Source: Pirellulales bacterium (GTDB lineage: Bacteria > Planctomycetota > Planctomycetia > Pirellulales > JAICIG01). From it: 34,433 bases of DNA. The translations under genes were made by a program, and so were the position numbers. Location: the NCBI GenBank assembly GCA_035533075.1, contig DATLUO010000051.1:1-34433 (forward strand), given 5' to 3'. The notes under the pieces are model-generated. The model had not been told where the DNA came from, made no database searches, and saw only the letters and a program-made list of their open reading frames with translations. This document shows positions 1-34,105 of this stretch, in pieces. How positions within the stretch are numbered: the stretch's first letter is position 1; every line of letters starts with the position of its first letter.

Positions 1-129
1 GACCAGCGAGCTTGCGAGCGACGGCCCACCGAAGTCAAGCGTCAGGTTGTTTGTCCTGACGCCTGACGCCTGAAACCTGACGCCTCAAATGGTGGGCCGG
101 CGCTCGCAAGCTCGCTGGTCCCACCCTAC
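1..129. repeat. Composite intergenic repeat: two inverted palindromic arms around heptamers
   Basis: An arm at 1-31 (truncated by the window edge) and an arm at 89-129 lie head to head. Each contains AGCGAGCTTGCGAGCG next to a GGCCCACC end, or the reverse complement. Between them are 7-bp units CCTGACG (55-61, 62-68, 76-82) with a variant CCTGAAA (69-75). GCGTCAGG at 39-46 pairs with CCTGACGC at 55-62 to make a hairpin. The element sits directly downstream of the stop codon of the Ser/Thr kinase gene. Related copies are at 3700, 5988, 19632, 27542 and 28613. Confidence 0.85.
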
Positions 130-3699: not shown

Positions 3700-3774
3700 G
3701 TAGGGTGGGAGCGAGCGAGCTTGCGAGCGCCGGCCCACCATCTGGAAGGCGTTGGGCGATAGGCGTTAGGCACT
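3700..3774. repeat. Half copy of the composite repeat: one arm plus heptamers
   Basis: The arm at 3700-3741 starts GTAGGGTGGGAGCGAGC and ends GGCCCACCAT. It is followed by 7-bp units AGGCGTT (3747-3753), GGGCGAT (3754-3760), AGGCGTT (3761-3767) and AGGCACT (3768-3774). There is no second arm; the terminator-like hairpin at 3780 takes its place. Confidence 0.8.
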
Positions 3775-7053: not shown

Positions 7054-10000
7054 ATGGCGACGGTCGCACCAGACAAACATTCGTCAACGGCTGGCTCCAA
7101 CGGAAACGGCGACAAAGTCGCGCGGCGTGCCACGCGTGCTATTGTCGGCAAAGTCGATAACGGGCGCCCCGCGTCCGCGCCACAAAGCGAAACGCCCGTC
7201 CACAAAGACGACGGCCGCGACCTGCTCGACAAGCGGCAATTATTGGCCGCCCTGATGGCCCTCAAGAAAGGCGAGTTCCGTGCCCGGCTTCCCTCGGACC
7301 TGACCGGCATCGATGGCAAGATCGCCGACACCTTCAACGACGTGATCGAGCTCAACCAACGGATGGCCAACGAGCTGGAACGGCTCAGCCGCGTCGTCGG
7401 CAAAGAGGGGCGGCTGTCGCAACGCGCGGCCATCGGCTCTCTCAGCGGCGCTTGGGCCGATTCCATCGCCTCCGTCAACGCCCTCATCGGCGATCTCGTC
7501 TATCCCACCACCGAAATCGCCCGCGTGATCGGCGCCGTGGCCAAAGGCGATCTGTCGCAGACCATGGCCATGGAGACCGAGGGCCGCCCGCTCAAGGGCG
7601 AGTTCTTGCGCACCTCGAAAACCGTGAATACGATGGTCGAGCAGCTCAGCTCGTTCGCCAGCGAAGTCACCCGCGTGGCCCGCGAAGTGGGCAACGAAGG
7701 AAAGCTCGGCGGGCAAGCCAAAGTGAAAGGCGTGGCCGGCACCTGGAAAGACCTGACCGACAGCGTGAACTCGATGGCCGGCAACCTCACCGGGCAGGTG
7801 CGCAACATCGCCGCCGTGACCACGGCCGTGGCCAACGGCGACTTGTCGAAGAAGATCACCGTCGACGTCAAAGGGGAGATTCTCGAACTCAAGAACACCA
7901 TCAACACGATGGTCGATCAGCTTCGCTCCTTTGCCAGCGAAGTGACCCGCGTGGCCCGCGAAGTGGGCACCGAAGGCAAGCTGGGCGGGCAGGCCGACGT
8001 GCCGGGCGTGGCCGGCACCTGGAAGGATCTCACCGACAACGTGAACTTCATGGCCGGCAATCTCACCAGCCAGGTGCGCAACATCGCCGACGTGACCAAG
8101 GCCGTGGCCGCCGGCGACCTCTCGCGCAAGATCACGGTGGACGTGAAGGGTGAAATCCTGGAGCTGAAAAACACGGTCAATACGATGGTCGATCAGCTCA
8201 GCTCCTTCGCCGCCGAAGTGACCCGCGTGGCCCGCGAAGTGGGCACCGAAGGCAAACTGGGCGGGCAGGCCGACGTGCGCGGCGTGGCCGGCACCTGGAA
8301 GGACCTCACCGACAGCGTGAACTTCATGGCCGGCAACCTCACGGCCCAGGTGCGCAACATCGCCGCGGTGACCACCGCCGTGGCCAACGGCGACCTCTCG
8401 AAAAAGATCACCGTCGATGTGAAGGGCGAAATCTTGGAGCTGAAAGACACGATCAACACGATGGTTGATCAGCTCCGCGCGTTTGCCAGCGAAGTGACGC
8501 GCGTGGCCCGCGAAGTGGGCACCGAAGGCAAGCTCGGCGGACAGGCCGACGTGCCCGGCGTGGCCGGCACCTGGAAAGACCTGACCGACAACGTGAACTT
8601 CATGGCCGGCAATCTCACGGCCCAGGTGCGCAACATCGCCGACGTGACCAAGGCCGTGGCCGCCGGCGATCTGTCGCGCAAAATCACGGTGGACGTGAAG
8701 GGTGAAATCCTGGAGCTGAAAAACACGGTCAATACGATGGTCGATCAGCTCAGCTCCTTCGCCGCCGAAGTGACCCGCGTGGCCCGCGAGGTGGGCACCG
8801 AAGGAAAACTGGGCGGTCAGGCCGACGTGCGCGGCGTGGCCGGCACCTGGAAGGACCTCACCGACAGCGTGAATTCGATGGCCGGCAACCTCACGGTGCA
8901 GTTGCGCGACGTGTCGAAGGTGGCCACGGCCATCGCCACCGGCGACTTGACGCAGAAGATCACCGTCGATGTGCGCGGCGAGATTTTGCAGATCAAGAAC
9001 GTGATCAATACGATGGTCGATCAGCTCAGCTCCTTCGCCGCTGAAGTGACCCGCGTGGCCCGCGAAGTGGGCACCGAAGGAAAGCTCGGCGGTCAGGCCG
9101 ACGTGCGCGGCGTGGCCGGCACCTGGAAAGACCTGACCGACAGCGTGAACTTCATGGCCGGCAACCTCACCGGGCAGGTGCGCAACATCGCCGCCGTGAC
9201 CACGGCCGTGGCCAACGGCGACCTCTCCAAGAAAATCACCGTGCCCGTGCGCGGAGAAATTCTGGAACTGAAAGACACGATCAATACGATGGTCGATCAG
9301 CTCAACTCGTTCGCCAGCGAAGTGACCCGCGTGGCCCGTGAAGTGGGCACCGAAGGCAAGCTCGGTGGCCAAGCCGACGTGCGCGGCGTGGCCGGCACCT
9401 GGAAAGACCTGACCGACAGCGTGAACTCGATGGCCGGCAACCTCACCGGGCAGGTGCGCAACATCGCCGCCGTGACCACGGCCGTGGCCAACGGCGACTT
9501 GTCGAAGAAAATCACCGTCGATGTTAAGGGCGAGATTCTGGAGCTGAAGAACACGATCAATACGATGGTCGATCAGCTCCGCTCGTTCGCCAGCGAAGTC
9601 ACGCGTGTGGCCCGCGAAGTAGGCACCGAAGGCAAGCTCGGTGGCCAGGCCGACGTGAAGGGCGTGGCCGGCACCTGGAAAGACCTGACTGACAGCGTGA
9701 ACTTCATGGCCGGCAACCTCACCGGCCAGGTGCGCAACATCGCCGACGTGACCAAAGCCGTGGCCGCCGGCGACTTGTCGAAGAAAATCACCGTCGATGT
9801 GAAGGGCGAGATTTTGGAGCTGAAGAACACGGTCAATACGATGGTCGATCAGCTCAACTCGTTCGCCAGCGAAGTGACCCGCGTGGCCCGCGAAGTGGGC
9901 ACCGAGGGAAAACTGGGCGGCCAGGCCGATGTGAAGGGCGTGGCCGGCACCTGGAAAGACCTGACCGACAACGTGAACTTCATGGCCGGCAACCTCACCA

Positions 10001-13000
10001 GCCAGGTGCGCAATATCGCCGACGTGACCAAAGCCGTGGCCGCCGGCGACCTCTCGCGCAAGATCACGGTCGACGTGAAGGGCGAAATCCTGGAGTTGAA
10101 AGACACCATCAACACGATGGTCGATCAGCTTAACTCGTTCGCCAGCGAAGTGACCCGCGTGGCCCGCGAAGTAGGCACCGAAGGGAAGTTGGGCGGCCAG
10201 GCCGACGTGAAGGGTGTGGCCGGCACCTGGAAAGATCTCACCGACAACGTGAACTTCATGGCCGGCAACCTCACCAGCCAGGTGCGCAACATCGCGGTCG
10301 TGGTCACCGCCGTGGCCAACGGCGACCTGACGCGCAAGCTGGCGGTCGATGCCAAGGGCGAAATCGCCGCGCTGGCCGACACGATCAACGGCATGATCGA
10401 CACGCTGGCCACGTTTGCCGACCAGGTGACCACGGTGGCCCGCGAAGTGGGCGTCGAAGGCAAGCTCGGCGGTCAGGCCAGCGTGCCCGGCGCCGCCGGC
10501 ACGTGGAAAGACCTCACCGACAACGTGAACCAGCTCGCCAACAATCTCACCACCCAGGTGCGTGCCATCGCCGAAGTGGCCACCGCCGTGACCAAGGGCG
10601 ACCTGACGCGCAGCATCACGGTCGAAGCGTTCGGCGAAGTGGCCGAGTTGAAGAACAACATCAACGAAATGATCGTGAACCTCAAGGACACGACGCTCAA
10701 GAACAACGAGCAAGATTGGCTCAAGACCAACATGGCCAAGTTCAGCCGCATGTTGCAGGGCCAAAAGGACCTGCTGGCGGTGGGCCGCTTGATCTTGTCG
10801 GAACTGGCCCCGGTGGTTTCGGCCCAGCAGGGCGCCTTCTACACGATGGACGTGACGGGCGAAGATCCGGTGCTCAAGCTGCTGGCCAGCTACGCCTACA
10901 AAGAACGCAAGAACATCGACAACGTGTTCAAGATGGGCGAGGGCCTGGTGGGCCAGTGCGCCCTGGAGAAGGAGAAAATCCTGCTCACGAACGTTCCGGC
11001 CGACTACATCAAGATCACCTCCGGCCTGGGCGAAGCGTCGCCGCTGAACGTGATCGTCATCCCCATCGTGTTCGAAGGGCAAGTCAAGGCGGTGATGGAG
11101 CTGGCGTCGTTCGACCGCTTCAGCCCCACGCACGAGACCTTCCTCGATCAGTTGACCGAGAGCATCGGCATCGTGCTCAACACCATCGAGGCCAACACCC
11201 GCACGGAAGACCTGCTCAAGCAGTCGCAATCGCTGGCCCGCGAGCTGACGACGCAGCAACAAGAGTTGCAGCTCACCAACCAGCAGTTGGGCGAAAAGGC
11301 GCAACTGCTCGCCCAGCAGAACGTGGAAGTGGAGCGCAAGAACCAGGAAGTCGAGCAGGCCCGCCGCGCATTGGAAGAGAAGGCCACGCAGTTGGCCCTC
11401 ACCACGAAGTACAAATCGGAATTCATGGCCAACATGTCGCACGAGCTGCGGACGCCGCTCAACAGCTTGTTGATCCTTTCCGATCAGCTTGCCCGCAACA
11501 CCGAGGCAAATCTCAACCCGCGGCAAGTCGAGTTCGCCCAGACGATCCACGCTTCGGGCAACGACCTGCTCTCGCTGATCAACGACATTTTAGACATCTC
11601 GAAGATCGAGTCCGGCACGGTCGTTCTCGACGTGGGGGACATCAGCTTCCGCGATCTGCACGATTACGTCGAGCGGAGCTTCCGCCACGTGGCCGAAAGC
11701 AAGCGGCTGGGCTTCAGCCTCAGTTTCGCGCCCGATCTGCCGTTTGCCTTGCAGACCGACGTCAAGCGCTTGCAGCAGGTCATCAAGAACCTGCTGTCGA
11801 ACGCCTTCAAATTCACCGAGCGGGGTGTGGTCTCGTTCCACGTGGCGACGGCCCGTGCCGGCTTCAGCACCGAGAACGATACGCTCCGCCGAGCGCCGTG
11901 CGTGCTGGCGATTTCGGTCTCCGACACGGGCATCGGCATCCCGGCCGACAAGCAGCAACTCATCTTCGAGGCCTTCCAGCAGGCCGACGGCAGCACCAAC
12001 CGCAAATACGGCGGCACCGGTCTGGGTCTGGCGATCAGCCGCGAGATCGCCAATCTGCTGGGCGGTGAGATCCGCCTGCAAAGCGAGCCGGGCAAGGGGA
12101 GCACCTTCACCCTTTACCTGCCGCAGGTCTATGTGCCGGCCAAGCCGGTGCGCCGCGAGCTGACTCCCGCGATGCATAAGGCCAAGGCTTCGGCGCAGCT
12201 CATCGAGGCCGAGGCGGCCTTGGCGGCCGAAGAGGACGCTGAACTCGGCCCCGCCACGATCGAAGTGGACGACGACCGCGACCGCCTGCAAGCCAGCGAC
12301 AAAGTGGCTTTGATCGTGGAAAACGACCCCATTTTCGCGCGCCTGATGTTGGAGGTCGCCCGCGAGGACGGCTTCAAAGCGGTGGTCGCCGCGCGCGGCG
12401 CCGAAGCGCTGATTCTCGTTCACCAGCTCCGCGTACACGCCGTCACACTCGATATCCACTTGCCCGACATCGACGGCTGGCGCGTTTTGGCTCAGTTGAA
12501 GGAAGACCTCTACACGCGCCATATACCGGTCTACATCGTGACCACCGAAGAAGAACGCGAACGCGGGCTGAAGATGGGCGCCATCGGCGCGTTGGCCAAG
12601 CCGCTGCAGCGGAGAGACGATCTGGGGCCGGTGTTCGACCGCTTGCGCGCGGCGGCCGCGCCGGGCCTGAAGACGCTGTTGATCGTCGGTCCCGACGACG
12701 CGCGCCGCGCCGAGATCGTCGATCTTGTCGCCGGCGACGACATTCAAACGATCGCCATCAACTTCGGCGACGCGGCGCTGGGCGCGTTGAAAGCACAATG
12801 TCCGACTTGTGCGGTCGTTCTGACGGCCGGATCGCCGCGGCGGCTGTTCGAGTTCTTGGAGGCGATTCGACGCCTGCCGGAGCTGGAAAACCTGCCGACG
12901 ATTGCGGAAGTCGACGACGAGCTGTCGATCGAAGACGAACAGCGCTTGAAGCGGCTGGCACAAACGATGGTGGTCAAAGACGTCCGCTCGCCCGAACGGT

Positions 13001-13473
13001 TGGTCGACGAGGTCGCCTTGTTTTTGCACCGCCCGGTGGAGCTGCTGCCGCAGGCCCGCCGTGAAATGTTGGAACGGCTGCACCGGGCCGAAGCCGTGTT
13101 GGCCGGCAAGAAAGTGTTGCTGGTCGACGACGACATCCGTAACATCTTCGCCATGACCAGTGTTTTGGAACGGCACGCCATGCAGGTCTTTTCGGCGGAG
13201 ACGGGCACGGCGGCACTCGACTTGTTGAACGGCATGCCCGATATGGACGTCGTGCTCATGGACATCATGATGCCGCACATGGACGGATATGATACGATGC
13301 GGGCCATCCGTGCCTCGGAGCAGTTCAGTTCGTTGCCGATCATTGCCTTGACGGCCAAGGCCATGAAGGGCGACCGCGAGAAGTGCATTGAGGCCGGCGC
13401 GTCGGATTACATCGCCAAGCCGGTCGATACCGAGCACCTGTTGGCGATGCTGCGTGTGTGGCTACATAGATAG
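7054..13473 (+). CDS. Giant cytoplasmic poly-HAMP hybrid histidine kinase with three receiver domains
   Basis: A protein of 2139 residues with no membrane helix. Order: an N-terminal degenerate HAMP-like unit (~65-198), eleven 92-residue HAMP-type repeats (199-1210), a GAF domain (~1235-1385), a coiled coil (~1390-1450), HisKA with the phospho-acceptor His1463 in SHELRTP, an HATPase domain with N and G boxes, receiver 1 (Asp1800 in [11 protein letters not shown]), a degenerate receiver 2 (~1873-2008) and receiver 3 (Asp2070 in [11 protein letters not shown]). The architecture matches poly-HAMP kinases such as fungal group III kinases (Nik1/Os-1 type), which are cytoplasmic and respond to osmotic or antifungal stress; the signal here is unknown. 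The start at 7054 has GAGG six bases upstream, and the longer frame would run back across the terminator at 6959-7002. A second hybrid kinase follows downstream, so phosphotransfer between them is plausible. Confidence 0.95.
7648..10683 (+). repeat. Eleven in-frame tandem 276-bp repeats coding for HAMP units
   Basis: Units begin at 7648 and recur every 276 bp without any indel to 10683. Each encodes a 92-residue unit starting [14 protein letters not shown] and ending NTMVDQL. Units 1-10 are nearly identical in protein; unit 11 and the tail of unit 10 diverge. Two linker types alternate ([15 protein letters not shown] and [15 protein letters not shown]), and unit 5 has a unique one ([15 protein letters not shown]). 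Confidence 0.97.
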
Positions 13474-13476
13474 TGG

Positions 13477-13614
13477 TCAGGGTTCAGGGTTCAGGGTTCA
13501 GGGTTTTGGACTTGGGTCTTGGGACTTGGGTCTTGGGTCTTGGAAGGCAACGCGATCCCTCATCCCTCATCTGAACCCTGAACCCTGAACCCCGAACCCC
13601 GAACCCTGAACCCC
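13477..13614. repeat. Inverted heptamer arrays filling the gap between two kinase genes
   Basis: Left array: TCAGGGT four times (13477-13504), then TTTGGAC and TTGGGTC/TTGGGAC units (13505-13539). Right array: ATCCCTC twice (13555-13568), then TGAACCC/CGAACCC six times (13572-13613). The outer TCAGGGT and TGAACCC families are reverse complements, so the block can fold into a long hairpin. The right array touches the GTG start of the next gene and leaves no Shine-Dalgarno. Confidence 0.92.
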
Positions 13615-15768
13615 GTGACCGACGAAGAGCTAGGCGTCCTGATCGTCGATGATCGTCACGACAAGCTGCTGGCGCTGTCGGCGGCCTTGGCCGACGTCTG
13701 TCCGCACATCGCCACCGCCGACTCGGGACGCGCCGCGCTGAAGCTGCTGCTGGAACGCAGCTTCGCCGTGATCCTGCTCGATGTGAACATGCCCGGCATG
13801 GACGGGTTCGAGACGGCCACCCTCATTCGGCAGCGGCAGCGGTCGGAATCGACGCCGATTATTTTCATCACGTCGTTCGGCGACGACATGCACGTCAGCC
13901 GCGGCTACTCGCTGGGCGCCGTCGATTACATCCTGGCCCCGGTGGTGCCCGAAGTTCTTCGCACCAAGGTCATGGTGTTTCTCGACCTGGCGCGAAAGAC
14001 GCGCGAGGTCGAGCTGCAGGCGCGGCGGCTGGCGCATCGCGCGGAGCAACTGCACAAATTATCGGAGGCCTCGCTGGCGATCCATTCGGCCATGTCGATG
14101 GAAAAGATGCTGCAGGTCATCACCGACACGGCCCGCGAGATCATCGGCGCCCACCGGGCCACGGCGGTGACCACGTGGGACCAGAACTGGGCCCGCTGCA
14201 AGACGACTCTTTCCCTGTCGCCGGAATTCGAACCGCGGCGGCCGCTGCTGTCGCCGTCGAGCGGCTGCGAGCTGCACACGTTGTGGCTGGCGCTGGGCCG
14301 CGCCGGCCGGCTTTCGTCGGCCGAGTTGCTGGCGCATCCGGCCTGGCACTCGCTGGGGCGATCGTTGTGCGATCTCGGCCAGCCGCCGGATTGGTTGGCC
14401 GCTCCTTTGACGGGGCGCGACGGCCGCGATATGGGCCTGTTGCACGTCTGCGGCAGGTGCCAGGGCGATTTCACGCCCGAAGACGAAGCGGTGCTGCTGC
14501 AGCTCGCCCAGATGGCGTCGATCGCCATCGAAAACACGCTCAACAGCGAGGCCCGCGAAGCGAACCGCATCAAGGACGAGTTTCTGGCGACGCTGTCCCA
14601 CGAGCTGCGAACGCCGCTCACCGCCATGCTCGGCTGGACGCAGCTTTTGCGCAGCGGCGCGCTGACCGCCGACGAAGAGGTCCGCGGCCTGGAGATTATC
14701 GAGCGCAATGTGCTCGCGCAGGCCAAGCTGATCGACGACCTGCTCGACGTCTCGCGGATCATCACGGGCAAGCTGCGATTGAACGTGCGGCCGTTGTCGC
14801 TGGCTTCGGTGATCGAGGCGGCCCTGGACGTGGTGCGGCCCGCCGCCGACGCCAAGGCGATTCGCTTCGAGCCGCTGCTCGACACACGGGCCGGACACGT
14901 TACCGGCGACCCCGACCGTCTGCAGCAGGTGGTCTGGAACCTGCTGGTCAACGCCGTCAAATTCAGTCCGGTGGGCGGCACGGTCCGTGTCTCTCTGACA
15001 CGACAGGGATCGTGGTCGCAGATCGAAGTCGCGGATGAAGGCGAGGGAATTGATTCCGACATCATGCCCCACATTTTCGACCGCTTTCGCCAGGCCGACA
15101 GCAGCACGCGACGCTCGCACGGCGGGTTGGGTCTGGGGCTGGCGATCGTCCGCCATGTGGTCGAGCTGCACGGCGGCAGCGTTCGCGCGGAAAGTTTGGG
15201 GACCGGCCACGGAGCCACGTTCGTCGTCGAGCTGCCGATGTCGGCGGTGGTCGCCGAGGGGCATGCGCAGCGGCCAGATACATCGGCGCCGCGGGCCGCC
15301 GCCCCGCGGGCCGAAATCGACTTGTCGGGCGTGCGCGTGCTGGTCGTCGATGACGAGCCCGACGGCCGCGAGGCCATTGCCAAAGTCCTGGCGATCTATC
15401 ATGCCCAAGTGGCGACCGCCTCGTCGGCGCGAGAAGCGCTGGCCCTTTTTGCCCAGGCCCGGCCCGACGTGCTGATCAGCGACATCGGCATGCCGGAACA
15501 GGACGGCTACGATCTGATCCGCCGGGTGCGCGACCTGGCGCCCGCGGACGGCGGGCGCGTGCCGGCCATGGCCTTGACGGCTTTTGCCCGTGAGGAAGAC
15601 CGACTGCGGGCGATCGAAGCGGGCTTTCAGGTTCACGCCATCAAGCCGGTGCAGCCGGCGGAGTTGGCGGCCGGCGTGGCCAAGCTTGCCGGCCGCGATG
15701 CCGCCTCGTCCGGGCCGAGCGGCGACGGACACGGCGTTTCTGCGAACCCGCTGGTTGCGGCGGGGTGA
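13615..15768 (+). CDS. Hybrid histidine kinase, REC-GAF-HisKA-HATPase-REC
   Basis: A cytoplasmic protein of 717 residues. The N-terminal receiver (about 6-125) has DD12-13 and the acceptor Asp56 in LLDVNMPGMDG. A GAF-type sensor follows (~150-310). HisKA has His329 in SHELRTP, the HATPase domain has N-box and G-box motifs to about residue 540, and a C-terminal receiver has Asp623 in ISDIGMPEQDG. The GTG at 13615 is used because the receiver begins at residue 6 and the space before it is wholly heptamer repeat; no Shine-Dalgarno is visible. Only 141 bp separate it from the poly-HAMP kinase on the same strand. Its N-terminal receiver suggests it takes phosphate from another kinase, plausibly that neighbour. 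Confidence 0.94.
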   Translation: MTDEELGVLIVDDRHDKLLALSAALADVCPHIATADSGRAALKLLLERSFAVILLDVNMPGMDGFETATLIRQRQRSESTPIIFITSFGDDMHVSRGYSLGAVDYILAPVVPEVLRTKVMVFLDLARKTREVELQARRLAHRAEQLHKLSEASLAIHSAMSMEKMLQVITDTAREIIGAHRATAVTTWDQNWARCKTTLSLSPEFEPRRPLLSPSSGCELHTLWLALGRAGRLSSAELLAHPAWHSLGRSLCDLGQPPDWLAAPLTGRDGRDMGLLHVCGRCQGDFTPEDEAVLLQLAQMASIAIENTLNSEAREANRIKDEFLATLSHELRTPLTAMLGWTQLLRSGALTADEEVRGLEIIERNVLAQAKLIDDLLDVSRIITGKLRLNVRPLSLASVIEAALDVVRPAADAKAIRFEPLLDTRAGHVTGDPDRLQQVVWNLLVNAVKFSPVGGTVRVSLTRQGSWSQIEVADEGEGIDSDIMPHIFDRFRQADSSTRRSHGGLGLGLAIVRHVVELHGGSVRAESLGTGHGATFVVELPMSAVVAEGHAQRPDTSAPRAAAPRAEIDLSGVRVLVVDDEPDGREAIAKVLAIYHAQVATASSAREALALFAQARPDVLISDIGMPEQDGYDLIRRVRDLAPADGGRVPAMALTAFAREEDRLRAIEAGFQVHAIKPVQPAELAAGVAKLAGRDAASSGPSGDGHGVSANPLVAAG

Positions 15769-19631: not shown

Positions 19632-19790
19632 GTAGGGTGGGACCAGCGAGCTCGCGAGCGCCGGCCCACCGCCAACGGGTTCAGGGTTCAGGGTTCAGGA
19701 ATACCTGAACTGACCTTTGCCCGACGCCTGACGCCTGACGCCTGAACATGGTGGGCCGGCGCTCGCAAGCTCGCTCGCTCCCACCCTACG
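19632..19790. repeat. Full composite repeat: inverted arms around two heptamer arrays
   Basis: Arm 1 is at 19632-19671 and the inverted arm 2 at 19748-19790. Inside are TCAGGGT units (19681-19694, then TCAGGAA to 19701) and CGACGCC/TGACGCC units (19722-19742). It lies in the divergent region between the DNase I-like gene and the gene at 20181. Confidence 0.9.
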
Positions 19791-21850: not shown

Positions 21851-21925
21851 GGCAACGGCTTCACATAAAGCGAGGGGAATCCCCCGTTAGCCTACTCGCC
21901 GTCCAGCCGGATTGCCAGCATTTGC

Positions 21926-22037
21926 GTGGTCCGTGGTCCGTGGTTAGCGGTTAGCGGTTAGTGGTTAGTGATTAGTGGTTAGTGATTAGTGGTTAGTGGT
22001 TAGTGGTTAGTGAACCCAAGACCCAAGACCCAAGTCC
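21926..22037. repeat. Sixteen consecutive heptamers with drifting sequence
   Basis: The 7-bp phase is unbroken: GTGGTCC twice, GTGGTTA, GCGGTTA twice, GTGGTTA and GTGATTA alternating, then GTGAACC, CAAGACC twice and CAAGTCC. The motif changes family halfway without losing the register. It sits upstream of the two-gene module at 22153. Confidence 0.93.
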
Positions 22038-22660: not shown

Positions 22661-22741
22661 ACCCAAGACCCAAAACCCAAGACCTAAGACCCACGACCGC
22701 GCCCGCAATCAAAAATCCAAAATCGAAAATCCAAAATCCCC
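22661..22741. repeat. Heptamer arrays of two families between convergent genes
   Basis: ACCCAAG/ACCCAAA/ACCTAAG/ACCCACG units (22661-22695) are followed by AATCAAA, AATCCAA, AATCGAA, AATCCAA and AATCCCC (22707-22741). The second array ends two bases from the stop codon of the sigma factor gene. The AATCCAA family returns at 33280 and, inverted, at 34069. Confidence 0.9.
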
Positions 22742-22742
22742 A

Positions 22743-23324
22743 TCACTCTTCCCCCAACACCTCCCTCAATCTCTTCAGCGCCCTCAGCGCCCTCACCTTG
22801 ACCGTCCCTTCCTTGATGCCCAGCGCGGCGGCCGTCTCGGCCACTGAAAGCTGCTCCAGGTGCCGCAGCACGAGCACCTCGCGGTCGTCGGGCGAAAGCC
22901 GATCGAGGCCGGCCCGTACGCGTGCCCGCAGTTCGTCGCGCACCATCCCTGCTTGCGGGTCGGCCGCCACGTCGACCAGCCGGCTGGCCAGTTCGGCCGC
23001 CGACTCGTCGGGCAAGCTCAGCACGCTCCGCTCCTCGCGCGACACGCTGCGGCGTTTGGCATAGAGGTGTGCCCGCTGCATGTCGATCAGCCGCTCGAAC
23101 GTGAGCGACCGCAGCCAGACATAGAACGGCACTTCGACCATCATCGACTCCTGAATGACATCCAACGGATCGAGCCTGGCCTTGAGCCTTTTATCCATCC
23201 GCAGCGTGAGCACGTTTTTCAAGCGGTCCCGCTGCCGCCCGAGCGCCTCCATGCCCGCACGTTCGTCGCCTTTTCGGGCCCGCGCCGGCAGCTCTTCGGT
23301 GTCGGGTTCTTTGGTGCGAGGCAT
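22743..23324 (-). CDS. ECF-type RNA polymerase sigma factor with a shortened region 2
   Basis: A protein of 193 residues. Region 2 includes LDPLDVIQE (51-59) and PFYVWLRSLTFERLID (66-81). Region 4 (about 135-190) has DREVLVLRHLEQLSVAE and the helix-turn-helix ALGIKEGTVKVRALRALKRL. It would direct RNA polymerase to a small regulon. Compared with similar planctomycete sigma factors, about 12 residues are missing between VIQE (residue 59) and PFYVW (66), inside region 2, in frame. No anti-sigma gene is adjacent. Heptamer repeats occupy the leader directly before the ATG, and no Shine-Dalgarno is visible. The family is clear; activity is uncertain because of the gap. Confidence 0.88.
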   Translation of the reverse strand: MPRTKEPDTEELPARARKGDERAGMEALGRQRDRLKNVLTLRMDKRLKARLDPLDVIQESMMVEVPFYVWLRSLTFERLIDMQRAHLYAKRRSVSREERSVLSLPDESAAELASRLVDVAADPQAGMVRDELRARVRAGLDRLSPDDREVLVLRHLEQLSVAETAAALGIKEGTVKVRALRALKRLREVLGEE

Positions 23325-23331
23325 GCGAAGA

Positions 23332-23358
23332 GGGTTCGGGGTTCGGGGTTCGGGGTTC
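23332..23358. repeat. Short TTCGGGG heptamer array upstream of the sigma factor gene
   Basis: TTCGGGG at 23335-23341, 23342-23348 and 23349-23355, flanked by GGG and TTC. It starts eight bases from the ATG of the sigma factor gene. Between it and 23630 I see no gene. Confidence 0.85.
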
Positions 23359-25242: not shown

Positions 25243-25303
25243 GGAGGGACGGAGAAACAGGAGCGAGGGAGAGACGGAGAGACGGAGGGAGTGAGCGAGG
25301 GAC
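25243..25303. repeat. Purine-rich GAGGGAC/GGAGAGA repeat, inverted copy at 25700
   Basis: Degenerate 7-8-bp units of GGAGGGAC, GGAGAGAC and GCGAGGGA fill 25243-25303. A pyrimidine-rich counterpart (CGTCCCTCCGTCTCTC and CGCTCCCTCTCTCCGTC) lies at 25700-25746. Together they flank the four-helix-bundle pseudogene like a loose inverted repeat. Confidence 0.7.
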
Positions 25304-25644
25304 TCATGGAAGGACCCAGTCGTCGGAGTTGCGGCTCATGTTCACGAGCATGCCGATGATTGCGTCGCCGCCAGATTCGAGCAGACCGACCGCGACGCGC
25401 GACGAATCTGCCCGGTCAGGGAATATCGCTCTTCCGCGGGAAAGCGCTTCGAGAGGTGAAAGATCTTCATCGCCGCGGCAAAGGCACGCTGGCCCGGATT
25501 ATTCATGGCCCCACACTAACCCGAAGCGCAAGCGAGGAAGGGCAAACAACTTACCTCGCTTGCGCTTCGGGTTGGTATGCGCCCAGTCTGCGCTGGAATT
25601 CGTGGGGCCATGAATAATCCGGGCTGGTAGACCTCAAGATCCAT
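25304..25644 (-). pseudogene. Four-helix-bundle protein gene, broken by an insertion and a deletion
   Basis: The start MDLEVYQ is read at 25644-25624. After the 131-bp element it resumes at 25488 with RAFAAAMKIFHLSKRF, then EERYSLTGQIRRASRSVCSN. This is the signature of the four-helix-bundle / 23S rRNA intervening-sequence protein family (usually ~120 residues). About 50 codons are then missing and the frame shifts. The typical C-terminus DAIIGMLVNMSRNSDDW follows, ending at the TGA at 25304-25306. Two independent lesions are therefore present, and the gene is dead. Family assignment is by eye but strong. Confidence 0.8.
25493..25623. mobile_element. 131-bp MITE-like element with 22-bp terminal inverted repeats
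   Basis: Perfect 22-bp terminal inverted repeats are at 25493-25514 and 25602-25623 (outer bases CCCGGATTATT / AATAATCCGGG). They are flanked by the 4-bp direct repeat CTGG at 25489-25492 and 25624-25627. Inside is a second perfect 20-bp inverted repeat (25518-25537 and 25554-25573, beginning AACCCGAAGCGCAAG). Removing the element and one CTGG restores the reading frame MDLEVYQ-RAFAAAM of the host pseudogene. It encodes nothing and would need a transposase from elsewhere. Confidence 0.88.
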
Positions 25645-25748
25645 AATGCCGCCTAACTGTGCGTCCCATCTACGGTAACCCCGTACCGGTTCTTCGTGAC
25701 CGTCCCTCCGTCTCTCAGTCGCTCCCTCTCTCCGTCTTTCCCTCGCTG

Positions 25749-27541: not shown

Positions 27542-27708
27542 GTAGGGTGGAAAAAGCGAGCTTGCGAGCGCCGGCCCGCCATGTTTGAGGCGATAGGCGA
27601 TAGGCGTTGGGCGTTAGGACAGCATCTTCACACCGCGCCTAACGCCCATCGCCTGACGCCTCCATTACGGTGGGCCGGCGCTCGCAATCTCGCTGGCCCC
27701 ACCCTACG
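27542..27708. repeat. Full composite repeat upstream of cstA
   Basis: Arm 1 is at 27542-27582 and the inverted arm 2 at 27669-27708. Inner left heptamers are AGGCGAT twice, AGGCGTT and GGGCGTT (27588-27615). Inner right heptamers are CCTAACG, CCCATCG and CCTGACG (27638-27658), reverse complements of the left type. A partial third arm (TGGTGGGCCG) follows at 27711. The whole is an imperfect 167-bp palindrome. Confidence 0.9.
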
Positions 27709-30504: not shown

Positions 30505-33279
30505 TCAGCGCAGCCGGCTGCGGGCCACGCCCTCACGCTCGTGCGCGCGCCGGTTGAAAAACACCCCCAGACCGACCAGCATCGGCAAGATCGGCGGCAG
30601 CACCACCGCCCACATCTTATACCAGTCTTGCTCGCGCGTAACCTGCAGGTTCAAGTCGCGCTCGATCTTGGTGACCTTCTGATCCAGATCCTTTTGAAGC
30701 TGCCGCTTGCGGGCGTCCAACCGTTGGTTGCCTTCCCGCTCCAGGATCTGCAGCCGCTGCATCAGCTCGATCGTGTTCATCTTTTCGCCACGTTTCTTCA
30801 ACTCGGACACGCGCTTGTCGAGCTCGGCCTGCTCTTTCGCCGTGGCCTCTTCCAAATCCTTGCGCTTCTCCAGCTTTTCCTTTTCAGCCGCCACCTTGGC
30901 GTCTTTCGTCTTCTCTTCGATGGTGGCCAACACGCGGTGCTTCAAGCGGCGCTTGCGAATGTCGATGAACCGGTCGTCGCCCGCCAGCGCGTCGAGCACG
31001 TTGAGCGTGAAGGTGATGTTGTCCAGGCTCAAATCCAGTTCGCGATCGGGATCCTGACTTTGTTGCCGGAACTGGAAAAACTCTTGATAGAAAAGGTCGA
31101 TGTCGGCGACCACCACCGCGTTGATCTCGGTGCGCTTCTTCTTTTCCTCCTTGTCGCCGTCCTTCTTCTCGTCCGCCTCGCTTTCTTTGGCGGTTTCTTC
31201 GGCGTCCTCCTCCGGCAGCTTGCCGGTGATGTGGGCCGCCAGAGTGTAGTAATCGCGCGTGGGCTTGCGGCGCGGGTTCGGATTCAGCCCCCCGCCGCCA
31301 CCGAAGGGATTCATTGTTTGCAGGTCGGAAAAGGCGACCTCGGCCGTCTCGTCGCCGGTCTGCAACAGCGGCTCGAACTTCATGTCCGATGCGTTCAGAT
31401 GCTTGAGCGATCCGGCATACAACAGCAGCACTTGTTGCAAGCCCGAGCTGATGGGGTCTTTTTGGCTGAACACCGGATGGTCTTTTTTGTCTTCGCTGGC
31501 GCCGGCGTCGATGAACAGCCATTCCGGCGTGACCGCCAGCTCGAGCTTTGGATAGGGATTGTAGTATTGGCAGACGAGTTCGTGGGCCTCGAATTCGATG
31601 CCCAGCAGCTTCCATAATTCACGGATGTCGCCCTTCGGCAGCGGCTGCTGCCCGCCAAACATCATCATCTGCTGCGGCGGTCGCTTGGGGGCCGTTGTGC
31701 CCGGAACGTCGCGAGTGAGAGAAAGCGGATCTTCGAAAATCGCCGTGGGAATTCCGCGCTTCACCGCCGCCACGAAGTTCTTCATCTGTTCGGGCGAAAG
31801 CGACGACGGCTGCACCGCGAACAAGACGTCGATGTCGTCCTTGACCGGTGTGTCGGCATTCACCTGCACCACGTCATATTGTTTTTCCAACTCGTCGATC
31901 AGCAAGTCGTTGCGGCCTTGCGTAAACGTCTGCATGTTGAAGCTGGCATACAGCTTGGCGTCGGTGACGAGCACGCCCAGCTTCTGACGCTTCTCTTCCG
32001 ACACCGTGGCGATCGACCGGGCCAATTCATATTCCACGGGCACCGCCGGACCGAGAAACGGCACGACGACTTTTTCCAGACCCGACGTGAAGGCGACGCC
32101 CATGTAAATCTGTTCGCGGCTCACCGCGCCGCGCGTCCGCGAAAAGACCGGCTGCGGCGTGATGTTGAACTGCTGCTCGGCCTGCTGCGCCTCGGGACTG
32201 AGCGGTTTCGTGTCGTGAATCCGCAGCCTCACCAGGTTCTTGCCGCGGGCCGCGAACTCGCGCAGCATCGAGAGCAGATCGAGCCGCGTTTTGACGTAGG
32301 ATTCCGGCACCTCCGGGCTGATATAGGCGTCGATCTTCACCGTCCGCTTCAGGTTGCCCAACAACTCGCGCGTCTTCGGCGACAGCGAGCTGAGGCCCTC
32401 GGCCGTCACGTCGGCACGCAAATCGAAATGCTGCAAGATCATCACCACGCCCACGGCAATGCCGATCAGCGAGCCTCCCCGCAGCAGATAATGCGGACCC
32501 AGCGACAGCCCGTCCTTGCCGCCCTGCCAATGCCGGCGGCCGATGAGCACCATGCTCAAGTAGAGCATCACCACCACGGTCAGCACAAAGTAGGAGACGC
32601 CCGAAAGGCTGACCACGCCGCGGCCAAAATCGCGGAACTGCTCTTCCAGGCTCCATTGTTTCACCGGAATGGCCCACTCGGCCGGCATGATCACATCGGC
32701 GTTGGCCGCGAAGGCCAACGGTGCGTTGAACAACGTCCCCAGCACAAAGCCGACCGTGAGGTTGCCGGTCAGGAACGAGGCCACCATGCCGATCGAGAGC
32801 ATCGCCGCCCCCACCAGCCAGTAACCGAAGTAGGTGCCGAAAAACAGTCCCAGGTCAGGCCCCACCGGCTGGTCGGGCAAGGGGTGCTTCGGATACGCCA
32901 GCCAGCTCAGCACCGAAAGGTTGCAGATCATCGAAAACAGCAGGGCCACGCTATAAATCGCCACCGCCGCCAGATACTTGCCCAGCACCACGTCGAAATC
33001 CGCGGCGGGAATCGTCAGCAGCAACTCGTCGGTCCCTTGCCGCCGCTCCTCGGCCCAAATGCTCATCGTGATGGCCGGAATGAAGACCAGCATGATGTAG
33101 GGCAGATAGCGGTTGAGCTGGTCGAGATTCGCCAGGTTCGAGCTGAAGAAGTCGTTCGGCCAGAAGGCCGCGAACGAACTCAACAGCACGTAGACGCAGA
33201 TGAACACATACCCGGTCGGGTTGGCGAAATACGAGTTGAAATTCCGCCTAAAAATGGCGCTGACAACGTTGAAGTTCAT
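30505..33279 (-). CDS. Fused ABC-2 permease and GldG-like protein
   Basis: A protein of 924 residues combining two usually separate components. Residues ~1-240 form an ABC-2 permease with six membrane helices (start FRRNFNSYFANPTGYVF; SIWAEERRQGTDELLLTIP), as in GldF. After further helices at about 232-295, residues ~300-640 form a GldG-like (PF09822-type) region with LSPKTRELLGNLKRTVKIDAY. A Glu/Lys-rich insert, a coiled coil (~790-890) and a C-terminal helix with a basic tail (NRRAHERE) follow. It would pair with the ATPase encoded just upstream. Gliding is not implied, since Gld-like transporters occur in non-gliding bacteria. The space before its ATG is entirely heptamer repeat. Confidence 0.93.
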   Translation of the reverse strand: MNFNVVSAIFRRNFNSYFANPTGYVFICVYVLLSSFAAFWPNDFFSSNLANLDQLNRYLPYIMLVFIPAITMSIWAEERRQGTDELLLTIPAADFDVVLGKYLAAVAIYSVALLFSMICNLSVLSWLAYPKHPLPDQPVGPDLGLFFGTYFGYWLVGAAMLSIGMVASFLTGNLTVGFVLGTLFNAPLAFAANADVIMPAEWAIPVKQWSLEEQFRDFGRGVVSLSGVSYFVLTVVVMLYLSMVLIGRRHWQGGKDGLSLGPHYLLRGGSLIGIAVGVVMILQHFDLRADVTAEGLSSLSPKTRELLGNLKRTVKIDAYISPEVPESYVKTRLDLLSMLREFAARGKNLVRLRIHDTKPLSPEAQQAEQQFNITPQPVFSRTRGAVSREQIYMGVAFTSGLEKVVVPFLGPAVPVEYELARSIATVSEEKRQKLGVLVTDAKLYASFNMQTFTQGRNDLLIDELEKQYDVVQVNADTPVKDDIDVLFAVQPSSLSPEQMKNFVAAVKRGIPTAIFEDPLSLTRDVPGTTAPKRPPQQMMMFGGQQPLPKGDIRELWKLLGIEFEAHELVCQYYNPYPKLELAVTPEWLFIDAGASEDKKDHPVFSQKDPISSGLQQVLLLYAGSLKHLNASDMKFEPLLQTGDETAEVAFSDLQTMNPFGGGGGLNPNPRRKPTRDYYTLAAHITGKLPEEDAEETAKESEADEKKDGDKEEKKKRTEINAVVVADIDLFYQEFFQFRQQSQDPDRELDLSLDNITFTLNVLDALAGDDRFIDIRKRRLKHRVLATIEEKTKDAKVAAEKEKLEKRKDLEEATAKEQAELDKRVSELKKRGEKMNTIELMQRLQILEREGNQRLDARKRQLQKDLDQKVTKIERDLNLQVTREQDWYKMWAVVLPPILPMLVGLGVFFNRRAHEREGVARSRLR

Positions 33280-33314
33280 AATCCAAAATCCAAAATCGAA
33301 AATCCAAAATCAGG
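33280..33314. repeat. Heptamer array filling the intercistronic gap of the ABC operon
   Basis: AATCCAA, AATCCAA, AATCGAA, AATCCAA and AATCAGG in unbroken 7-bp phase. One end touches the ATG of the permease-GldG gene (33279); the other contains the TGA of the ATPase gene (33310-33312). The translation-initiation region of the downstream gene is therefore made of TTGGATT repeats on the coding strand, with at best GGA as a weak Shine-Dalgarno. Confidence 0.92.
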
Positions 33315-34068: not shown

Positions 34069-34089
34069 TTGGATTTTGGATTTTGGATT
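34069..34089. repeat. Three TTGGATT heptamers upstream of the ABC operon
   Basis: TTGGATT at 34069-34075, 34076-34082 and 34083-34089, 21 bases before the ATG at 34047. This is the reverse complement of the array at 33280-33314 in the same operon. Confidence 0.88.
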
Positions 34090-34105
34090 TGCGGCTTTTC
34101 GCCAA

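Follow-up and report, generated by a model that had tools for sequence, protein, structure and literature searches.

Why should tandem repeats built from different words, lying in the gaps between genes, share a period of seven nucleotides? The question is raised by the window analyzed here, the whole stretch of 34,433 nucleotides that forms contig C51 in the draft genome (8.54 Mb, 296 contigs) of a Pirellulales bacterium. A first-pass annotation, made from the letters of the window alone, had noted arrays of eight words with period 7, had considered the words unrelated and the changes between them to occur without loss of register, and had proposed one generating process with a fixed 7-bp step.

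Heptamer over-representation in bacteria has been reported since at least 2007 with no agreed cause, and a polymerase footprint was earlier suggested as the reason for slippage by 7 bp (both as cited in PMC4692102). The GGGAATC and GGGGA(C/T)T heptamers of Xanthomonas and Nostoc show an excess, polarity at gene edges, and conservation of slots with length variation, the same slots holding repeats of variable length in two species; their function was left open (Rehm et al. 2015, PMC4692102). The STRR repeats of heterocystous cyanobacteria include, as cited in the same paper, three heptanucleotides in Calothrix. TAACTGA direct repeats of Beggiatoaceae, Cyanobacteria and Bacteroidetes have been proposed as translation-regulator sites (MacGregor 2015, PMC4679880).

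Results

The arrays named by the first-pass annotation were all confirmed where it had placed them, by Tandem Repeats Finder and by lag analysis. The arrays of the window and the elements associated with them are as follows.

55..85, - strand: (CCTGACG)n, G-strand word GGCGTCA; adjoins a REP inner arm
3747..3771, + strand: (AGGCGTT)n, weak
13477..13543, + strand: arm in which GGGTTCA changes to GGGTCTT; begins 3 nt past the TAG (13471-13473) that ends the histidine kinase gene upstream
13555..13613, - strand: arm of ATCCCTC then CTGAACC (G-strand GGGATGA, GGGTTCA); ends 1 nt short of the start codon GTG at 13615
19661..19759, no strand: GTAG-type REP pair with inner arms CCGGCCCACC...GGTGGGCCGG, enclosing the next two arrays
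19677..19699, + strand: (GGGTTCA)n within the REP pair
19719..19745, - strand: (GCCTGAC)n within the same REP pair, the different-word converging partner of 19677..19699
21925..22012, + strand: focal left arm, CGTGGTC to GGTTAGC to GGTTAGT, a single unbroken lag-7 segment, G-rich on the + strand
22014..22034, - strand: focal right arm, (ACCCAAG)3, G-strand word GGGTCTT; converges on the 21925..22012 arm
22661..22698, - strand: (ACCCAAG)n, the inner of the two words that make up an arm
22707..22739, - strand: (AATCCAA)n, the outer word of that arm; 3 nt separate its end from the stop codon of the 22743-23324 gene
23332..23358, + strand: (GGGTTCG)n, close to the start of the 22743-23324 gene (- strand)
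25260..25302, + strand: left arm of octamers of the GGAGAGAC type, a minority period-8 class
25702..25744, - strand: octamer-like right arm, C/T-rich, period 8/16; converges with 25260-25302
27588..27618, + strand: (AGGCGAT)n, drifting to AGGCGTT
about 33280..33311, - strand: (AATCCAA)n, occupying the whole gap between two - strand genes, from the TGA of an ABC-ATPase to the following ATG
34069..34090, + strand: (TTGGATT)n, G-strand word GGATTTT

Nearly all of the gap between the TAG of the histidine kinase and the next GTG (13474-13614) is array. The gap with the octamer arrays also holds a long inverted repeat, AACCCGAAGCGCAAGCGAGG...CCTCGCTTGCGCTTCGGGTT (~25517-25575). Repetition of another kind lies at 7627-10625, where about 11 in-frame copies of a 276-bp (92-aa) repeat, 85% matching, lie toward the N terminus of a hybrid histidine kinase of 2175 aa and are likely a ladder of HAMP domains. 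Rfam and tRNA searches of the window gave zero matches.

When the internal 276-bp repeats of the kinase were set aside, the window contained 15 exact runs at lag 7 (at least 11 matches), against 0-1 at each other lag from 1 to 13. The rest of the genome was sampled as stretches amounting to 1.4 Mb, with genes called by a simple dicodon model and repeats counted per lag. In the 734 kb of this sample that lay outside stretches picked for arrays, 73 exact lag-7 runs of at least 12 were found, against 0-4 per other lag (1-13). Intergenic arrays, counted with tolerance for mismatches, numbered 93 at lag 7 and 1-6 at the other lags from 3 to 13, with 2 at lag 6 and 4 at lag 8; lag 7 is thus the sole strong peak, and lag 14 and higher multiples are elevated because of it. 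Neither of the outcomes that the first-pass annotation had named as refuting, a missing excess at lag 7 or peaks of equal height at 6 and 8, was observed. These counts rule out chance and base composition as the cause of the arrays. The arrays are real, and 7 is their dominant, not their absolute, period. About 18 perfect copies of CGCTCTC (L052:6119-6248) reach the end of contig C34, and some contigs of the related genome G001 also begin in heptamer arrays, so that assemblies probably under-count them.

Read on the G-rich strand, the array words form a vocabulary specific to the genome and are mostly GGNNNNN, the commonest being GGGTTCA, GGATTTT, GGTTAGT, GGCGTCA, GGGATGA, GGCAGAA, GGCGTTA, GGTCCGT and GGGTCTT, together with the G-poor GCAATTT. 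With overlapping units included, the GGGTTCA pattern GGGTTCAGGGTTCAGGG has 590 matches genome-wide against 1 for its reversed control, and the GGATTTT pattern GGATTTTGGATTTTGGA has 173 against 0. Several word families are therefore present, but not eight unrelated ones: TTGGGTC and ACCCAAG are the same word read from the two strands, TTCGGGG and TCAGGGT differ by one substitution, and about six words are left after strand and one-base variants are merged. Arms of the GCAATTT type surround a core at L018:218-322, L044:8857-8975 and L045:12877-12983; the L018 and L044 elements resemble each other in this core, AGTCGGTTCGGG...CGATTTC, which is possibly a small mobile element in its own right.

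Register is indeed kept across the word changes at 21925-22012 and 13477-13543. It is not kept for the ACCCAAG block at 22014-22034, whose register with the left arm is meaningless because the block lies in the opposite orientation. Genome-wide, the offsets between different words of one arm are scattered and are zero in 3 of 15, which excludes register as a general rule. Only some word pairs are in register, and certain pairs reuse the same junction, GGGTTCA to GGGTCTT in register and GGGTTCA to GATGAGG at an offset of 5. Rare octamer arrays have the same convergent layout (25260-25302 with 25702-25744 in the window, L144:18238-18363, and contigs L227 and L242), and in L227 the octamers adjoin related heptamers. 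Such arrays show that a rigid ruler of 7 is not required, inheritance of the period from older arrays being sufficient; the in-register drift at 21925-22012 likewise means that period 7 may merely be inherited. A single generating process remains supported by shared words at hundreds of places, strict convergence, arrays bounded by codons and word swaps at orthologous slots; the fixed step proposed for it does not.

The arrays are strongly polarized. Among neighboring arrays within 200 nt in this genome, the G-strands converge in 49 pairs and diverge in none (binomial p 4e-15), and the same was found for pairs of different words (23:0), pairs outside REP elements (38:0) and pairs separated from every gene by more than 40 nt (11:0), the last being beyond the reach expected of selection at start and stop codons. 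The center of convergence is the middle of the gap, often a hairpin or a REP pair. Selection for hairpins is insufficient as a cause, since unlike words do not pair and still converge 23:0, and since a hairpin is possible in either order. Of the arrays that lie no more than 25 nt from a gene, 78 are directed away from the gene and 10 toward it, at stops and starts alike; single arrays more than 25 nt from a gene have no polarity (16:15).

A possible, if somewhat doubtful, explanation is ordinary slippage in place by a polymerase that favors ~7 bp, with purifying selection restricting the arrays to intergenic DNA and selection at the level of mRNA orienting them, so that G-poor leaders precede starts and G-rich tails follow stops. 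Such slippage would agree with the heptamer excess in many bacteria and the polymerase-footprint idea, as cited in PMC4692102, with arrays that are imperfect and length-variable and in which transitions are the dominant changes, and with the confinement of single-array polarity to the first 25 nt from genes. However, it gives no reason to choose the same word, and the same few words turn up at numerous loci whose flanks differ, in another class of the phylum and on unrelated contigs as well. Nor does it account for convergence away from genes and between unlike words, or for a stop side that is as polarized as the start side.

Arrays also tend to begin and end at gene edges. Of 188 arrays, 68 come to within 10 nt of the end of a gene, against 33 expected if they were uniform within their own gaps, and many begin within the stop codon in word register (TAG|TGGTTAG, tAG|GGTTCAGGG, GATGA|GGGATGA). 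The stop is TAG in 23 of 39 in-register cases and in 385 of 1151 genes (33%; Fisher p 0.0009), an excess that may in part reflect selection favoring a stop codon where gene and array meet. Divergent gaps are under-represented among those with arrays (11/167, against 84/569 tandem gaps). The ends have preferred phases that depend on the word: GGGTTCA arrays start A|GGGTTC in 33 of 53 and end CAG or CAGG in 37 of 53, and GGATTTT arrays end GGATT in 22 of 33. Unrelated contigs gave the same modal phases (26/60 and 25/60 for GGGTTCA, 12/18 for GGATTTT), and no start or end phase was seen for GGTTAGT arrays. Variation showed no gradient from tip to base, both array ends being about equally variable.

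Three orthologous slots could be compared with one relative, G001, the sole genome of the same family that was found (~72% identity for the 30505-33279 protein). At the first slot (L149:4631-4717) a convergent GGGATGA array fills the gap in our genome; the orthologous genes of G001 (71-75% identity) lie 4 nt apart, as TAG GATC ATG, with no array. The array begins past the corresponding GAG codon and provides a new TGA stop. At the second slot, the window gap from 33280, (AATCCAA)n corresponds, between the same genes of G001, to 100 nt of convergent GGCTGGT/GGTTGGT words. At the third, (TGAACCC)n precedes the GTG at 13615, and (CACCAAC)n precedes the orthologous GTG of G001. At both of these slots the polarity and the codon boundaries agree between the two genomes. 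The GGTTGGT pattern has 42 matches in G001 and 12 in our genome. On these comparisons, slots and polarity are retained, or else re-made, as the words change. A search of relatives for the 22743-23324 protein gave matches at paralogue level only, and there were no arrays at those places.

Two slots that are kept in the relative despite a change of word could also mean that folding outweighs sequence, as would be expected if G-rich heptamers were functional G-quadruplex or RNA elements that fold and regulate or insulate the neighboring genes, with orientation under selection. The GGGAATC repeats of Xanthomonas and Nostoc obey the same orientation rule and fold into G-quadruplexes in vitro (PMC4692102). 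We nevertheless consider this explanation unlikely. There is no preference for four G-tracts (GGGTTCR arrays with 2-6 tracts number 32, 13, 15, 12 and 7), GG-only words such as GGATTTT and the GG-less GCAATTT are common, one slot is simply absent in G001, and the window holds zero Rfam matches.

Part of the arrays is associated with mobile elements. GTAG-tagged 39-bp REP units (GTAGGGTGGGACCAGCGAGCTTGCGAGCGCCGGCCCACC) number 100 in the 1.4 Mb, and the genome has 12 Y1_Tnp matches; in 23 of the 100 an array lies no more than 40 nt away on the inner side, against 6% expected. This enrichment, the transposase matches, and the finding that some array-bearing REP spacers are recognizable copies of one another would be explained if the arrays were passengers of mobile GTAG-type REP pairs, whose Y1 (RAYT-like) transposases spread words by way of the spacers. 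As an account of the arrays at large this is distinctly unlikely, since REPs are involved in only 25-32 of 121 array groups, and the remainder have mostly unrelated flanks and the same polarity (38:0). Hitchhiking on REPs thus fails as a full explanation. The units resemble the GTAG REP elements described in PMC3733652 in being 39-bp GTAG palindromes and pairs accompanied by Y1 transposases, and they enclose part of the arrays; REPs cover only about a quarter of the array groups and leave the heptamers themselves unexplained.

Polarity, word-specific phases, seeds of microhomology and the occurrence of the same words in distant lineages resemble addition from a fixed template, and the bacterial system DRT10 demonstrates that bacteria are capable of such synthesis (PMC12632851). 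It is nonetheless extremely unlikely here that a reverse transcriptase adds the heptamers from an RNA template in the manner of telomerase. In this genome RVT_1 is matched by group II-like fragments and by a single retron-outgroup reverse transcriptase, which is divided between two contig ends; neither an enzyme of the kind required, whose RNA template would exceed one repeat in length, nor a template RNA was identified. Dozens of words would in addition need many templates. Across 26 genomes RVT_1 did not track the arrays, G253 having arrays and no RVT_1 match, and many genomes with no array-word matches carrying reverse transcriptases. Ku did not track them in these genomes either, array matches occurring with no match to Ku in G330, G253, G274 and G118, some of which are incomplete drafts. 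Presence and absence therefore give no support to Ku/NHEJ or an RVT_1 reverse transcriptase as required partners. The retron-outgroup enzyme (L070:1057-1998 and L071:1258-1770, at the ends of contigs C13 and C225) lies ~300 bp from a divergent gene with a LigD 3'-phosphoesterase domain.

GGGTTCA arrays were found in 12 of 392 sampled Planctomycetota genomes, strongly so in G330, which belongs to another class of the phylum (102 GGGTTCA matches, with GGATTTT also present). A further set of 45 IMG/VR stretches, a few of which share a contig, was chosen by the GGGTTCA or GGATTTT word and spans 43-70% GC; the reversed-order control word matched 2 stretches. Lag 7 scored 192 in this set against 0-23 for the other lags from 3 to 13, an excess that is partly built in by the selection. 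The way in which the contigs were found does not build in the arrays of further words or the polarity: 25 stretches hold further heptamer words (GGAGTTA, GTGAAGA, GGCTAGT and more), pairs converge in 28 cases and diverge in 1, and arrays at gene edges point away in 87 and toward in 21. Host DNA or prophage may be among these contigs. On contigs L251, L232, L233 and L244 convergent GGGTTCA arrays have in common a hairpin-like core, GACGCGCAAGCGG, which resembles the inner part of the REP in our genome.

Discussion

We tentatively favor the hypothesis that the heptamer arrays copy themselves and are added, in one direction, to the 3' ends left where intergenic DNA breaks, a mechanism that we infer from sequence. 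A break or a stalled fork in a gap, for which palindrome centers would be good sites, would leave two 3' ends. Each end could anneal, through 2-4 bases of microhomology (AG, TAG, ATT), to the C-rich strand of an array elsewhere, and an ordinary polymerase with slippage could then extend it by a few repeats, after which the ends would be joined to each other. The intergenic DNA lying between the codons would be lost and replaced, and selection would spare the genes. Period 7 would be inherited, each array being copied from an older one, and the words would drift by substitution and rarely by insertion, the latter giving octamers. Inward-pointing G-strands on both sides would follow because the 3' ends are extended on a C-rich template, and this is the simplest single rule for convergence with any pair of words and away from genes. 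Words common to many loci imply a template in trans, either other arrays or a dedicated RNA. Ordinary polymerases copying arrays through microhomology are preferred here because RVT_1 and Ku do not track the arrays.

Self-copying is supported by the lag-7 excess, the shared words, the 49:0 polarity, the counts at gene edges, the empty and swapped slots, the phases and the drift. It should be interpreted with some caution, since no break, intermediate or copying event was seen in what is a static sequence. The lack of polarity among single arrays more than 25 nt from a gene (16:15) counts against its simple form. Simple growth at the tip might predict a gradient of variation, yet both ends are about equally variable. 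Moreover, the word-specific end phases fit a fixed template or AGG-N4-AGG seeds better than copying in random phase. A dedicated and widespread activity could be imagined that adds heptamers to intergenic 3' ends from fixed templates of ~1.4 units, with word sets specific to each genome, in a telomere-like capping followed by the rejoining of genes, but we regard this as very unlikely.

The arrays share with the repeats of Rehm et al. a G-rich unit of 7, intergenic position, scatter over the genome, sense orientation near stops and antisense near starts, and rarity between divergent genes. Those repeats belong to one word family per genome, whereas our genome has dozens of words, composite arms and convergent pairs of unlike words, as well as replacement of gaps, different words at orthologous slots and no preference for four units. 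STRR repeats, compared here by their description in citing work, are likewise tandem heptamers dispersed in the genome with several words per organism, but the present host is a planctomycete, the nearest named matches to a protein of the window being from distant Planctomycetota, and not a heterocystous cyanobacterium; in those parts of the literature that were accessible, no report of STRR polarity or slot turnover was found. TAACTGA repeats are also tandem, intergenic heptamers, often just upstream of starts and patchy in phylogeny, and differ in consisting of a single word, related heptamers being seldom repeated. With DRT10 and telomerase (PMC12632851) the arrays have in common the polarity of the G-rich strand toward ends, and fixed phases of the kind that template-bounded addition would give; unlike DRT10, they do not follow RVT_1, and no DRT10-like reverse transcriptase was found here.

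The first-pass annotation had known of no description of drifting, multi-word arrays tied to palindromes. This holds in part: drifting multi-word convergent arrays and the turnover of words at slots were not found in the searchable literature, and a literature search gave no direct report of heptamers in planctomycetes, but heptamer excess and edge polarity have been published (PMC4692102). New here are a vocabulary of many words, unlike words that strictly converge, slots that are empty or hold another word in the relative, phases that depend on the word, a minority of octamers, and negative results for reverse transcriptase and Ku.

In conclusion, convergence, changes at slots and fixed phases turn the origin of these arrays into a testable choice between directional copying into a gap and slippage in place. 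If the arrays are copied, bacterial intergenic DNA would have a self-propagating part that rewrites the space between genes while the genes themselves stay unmoved.
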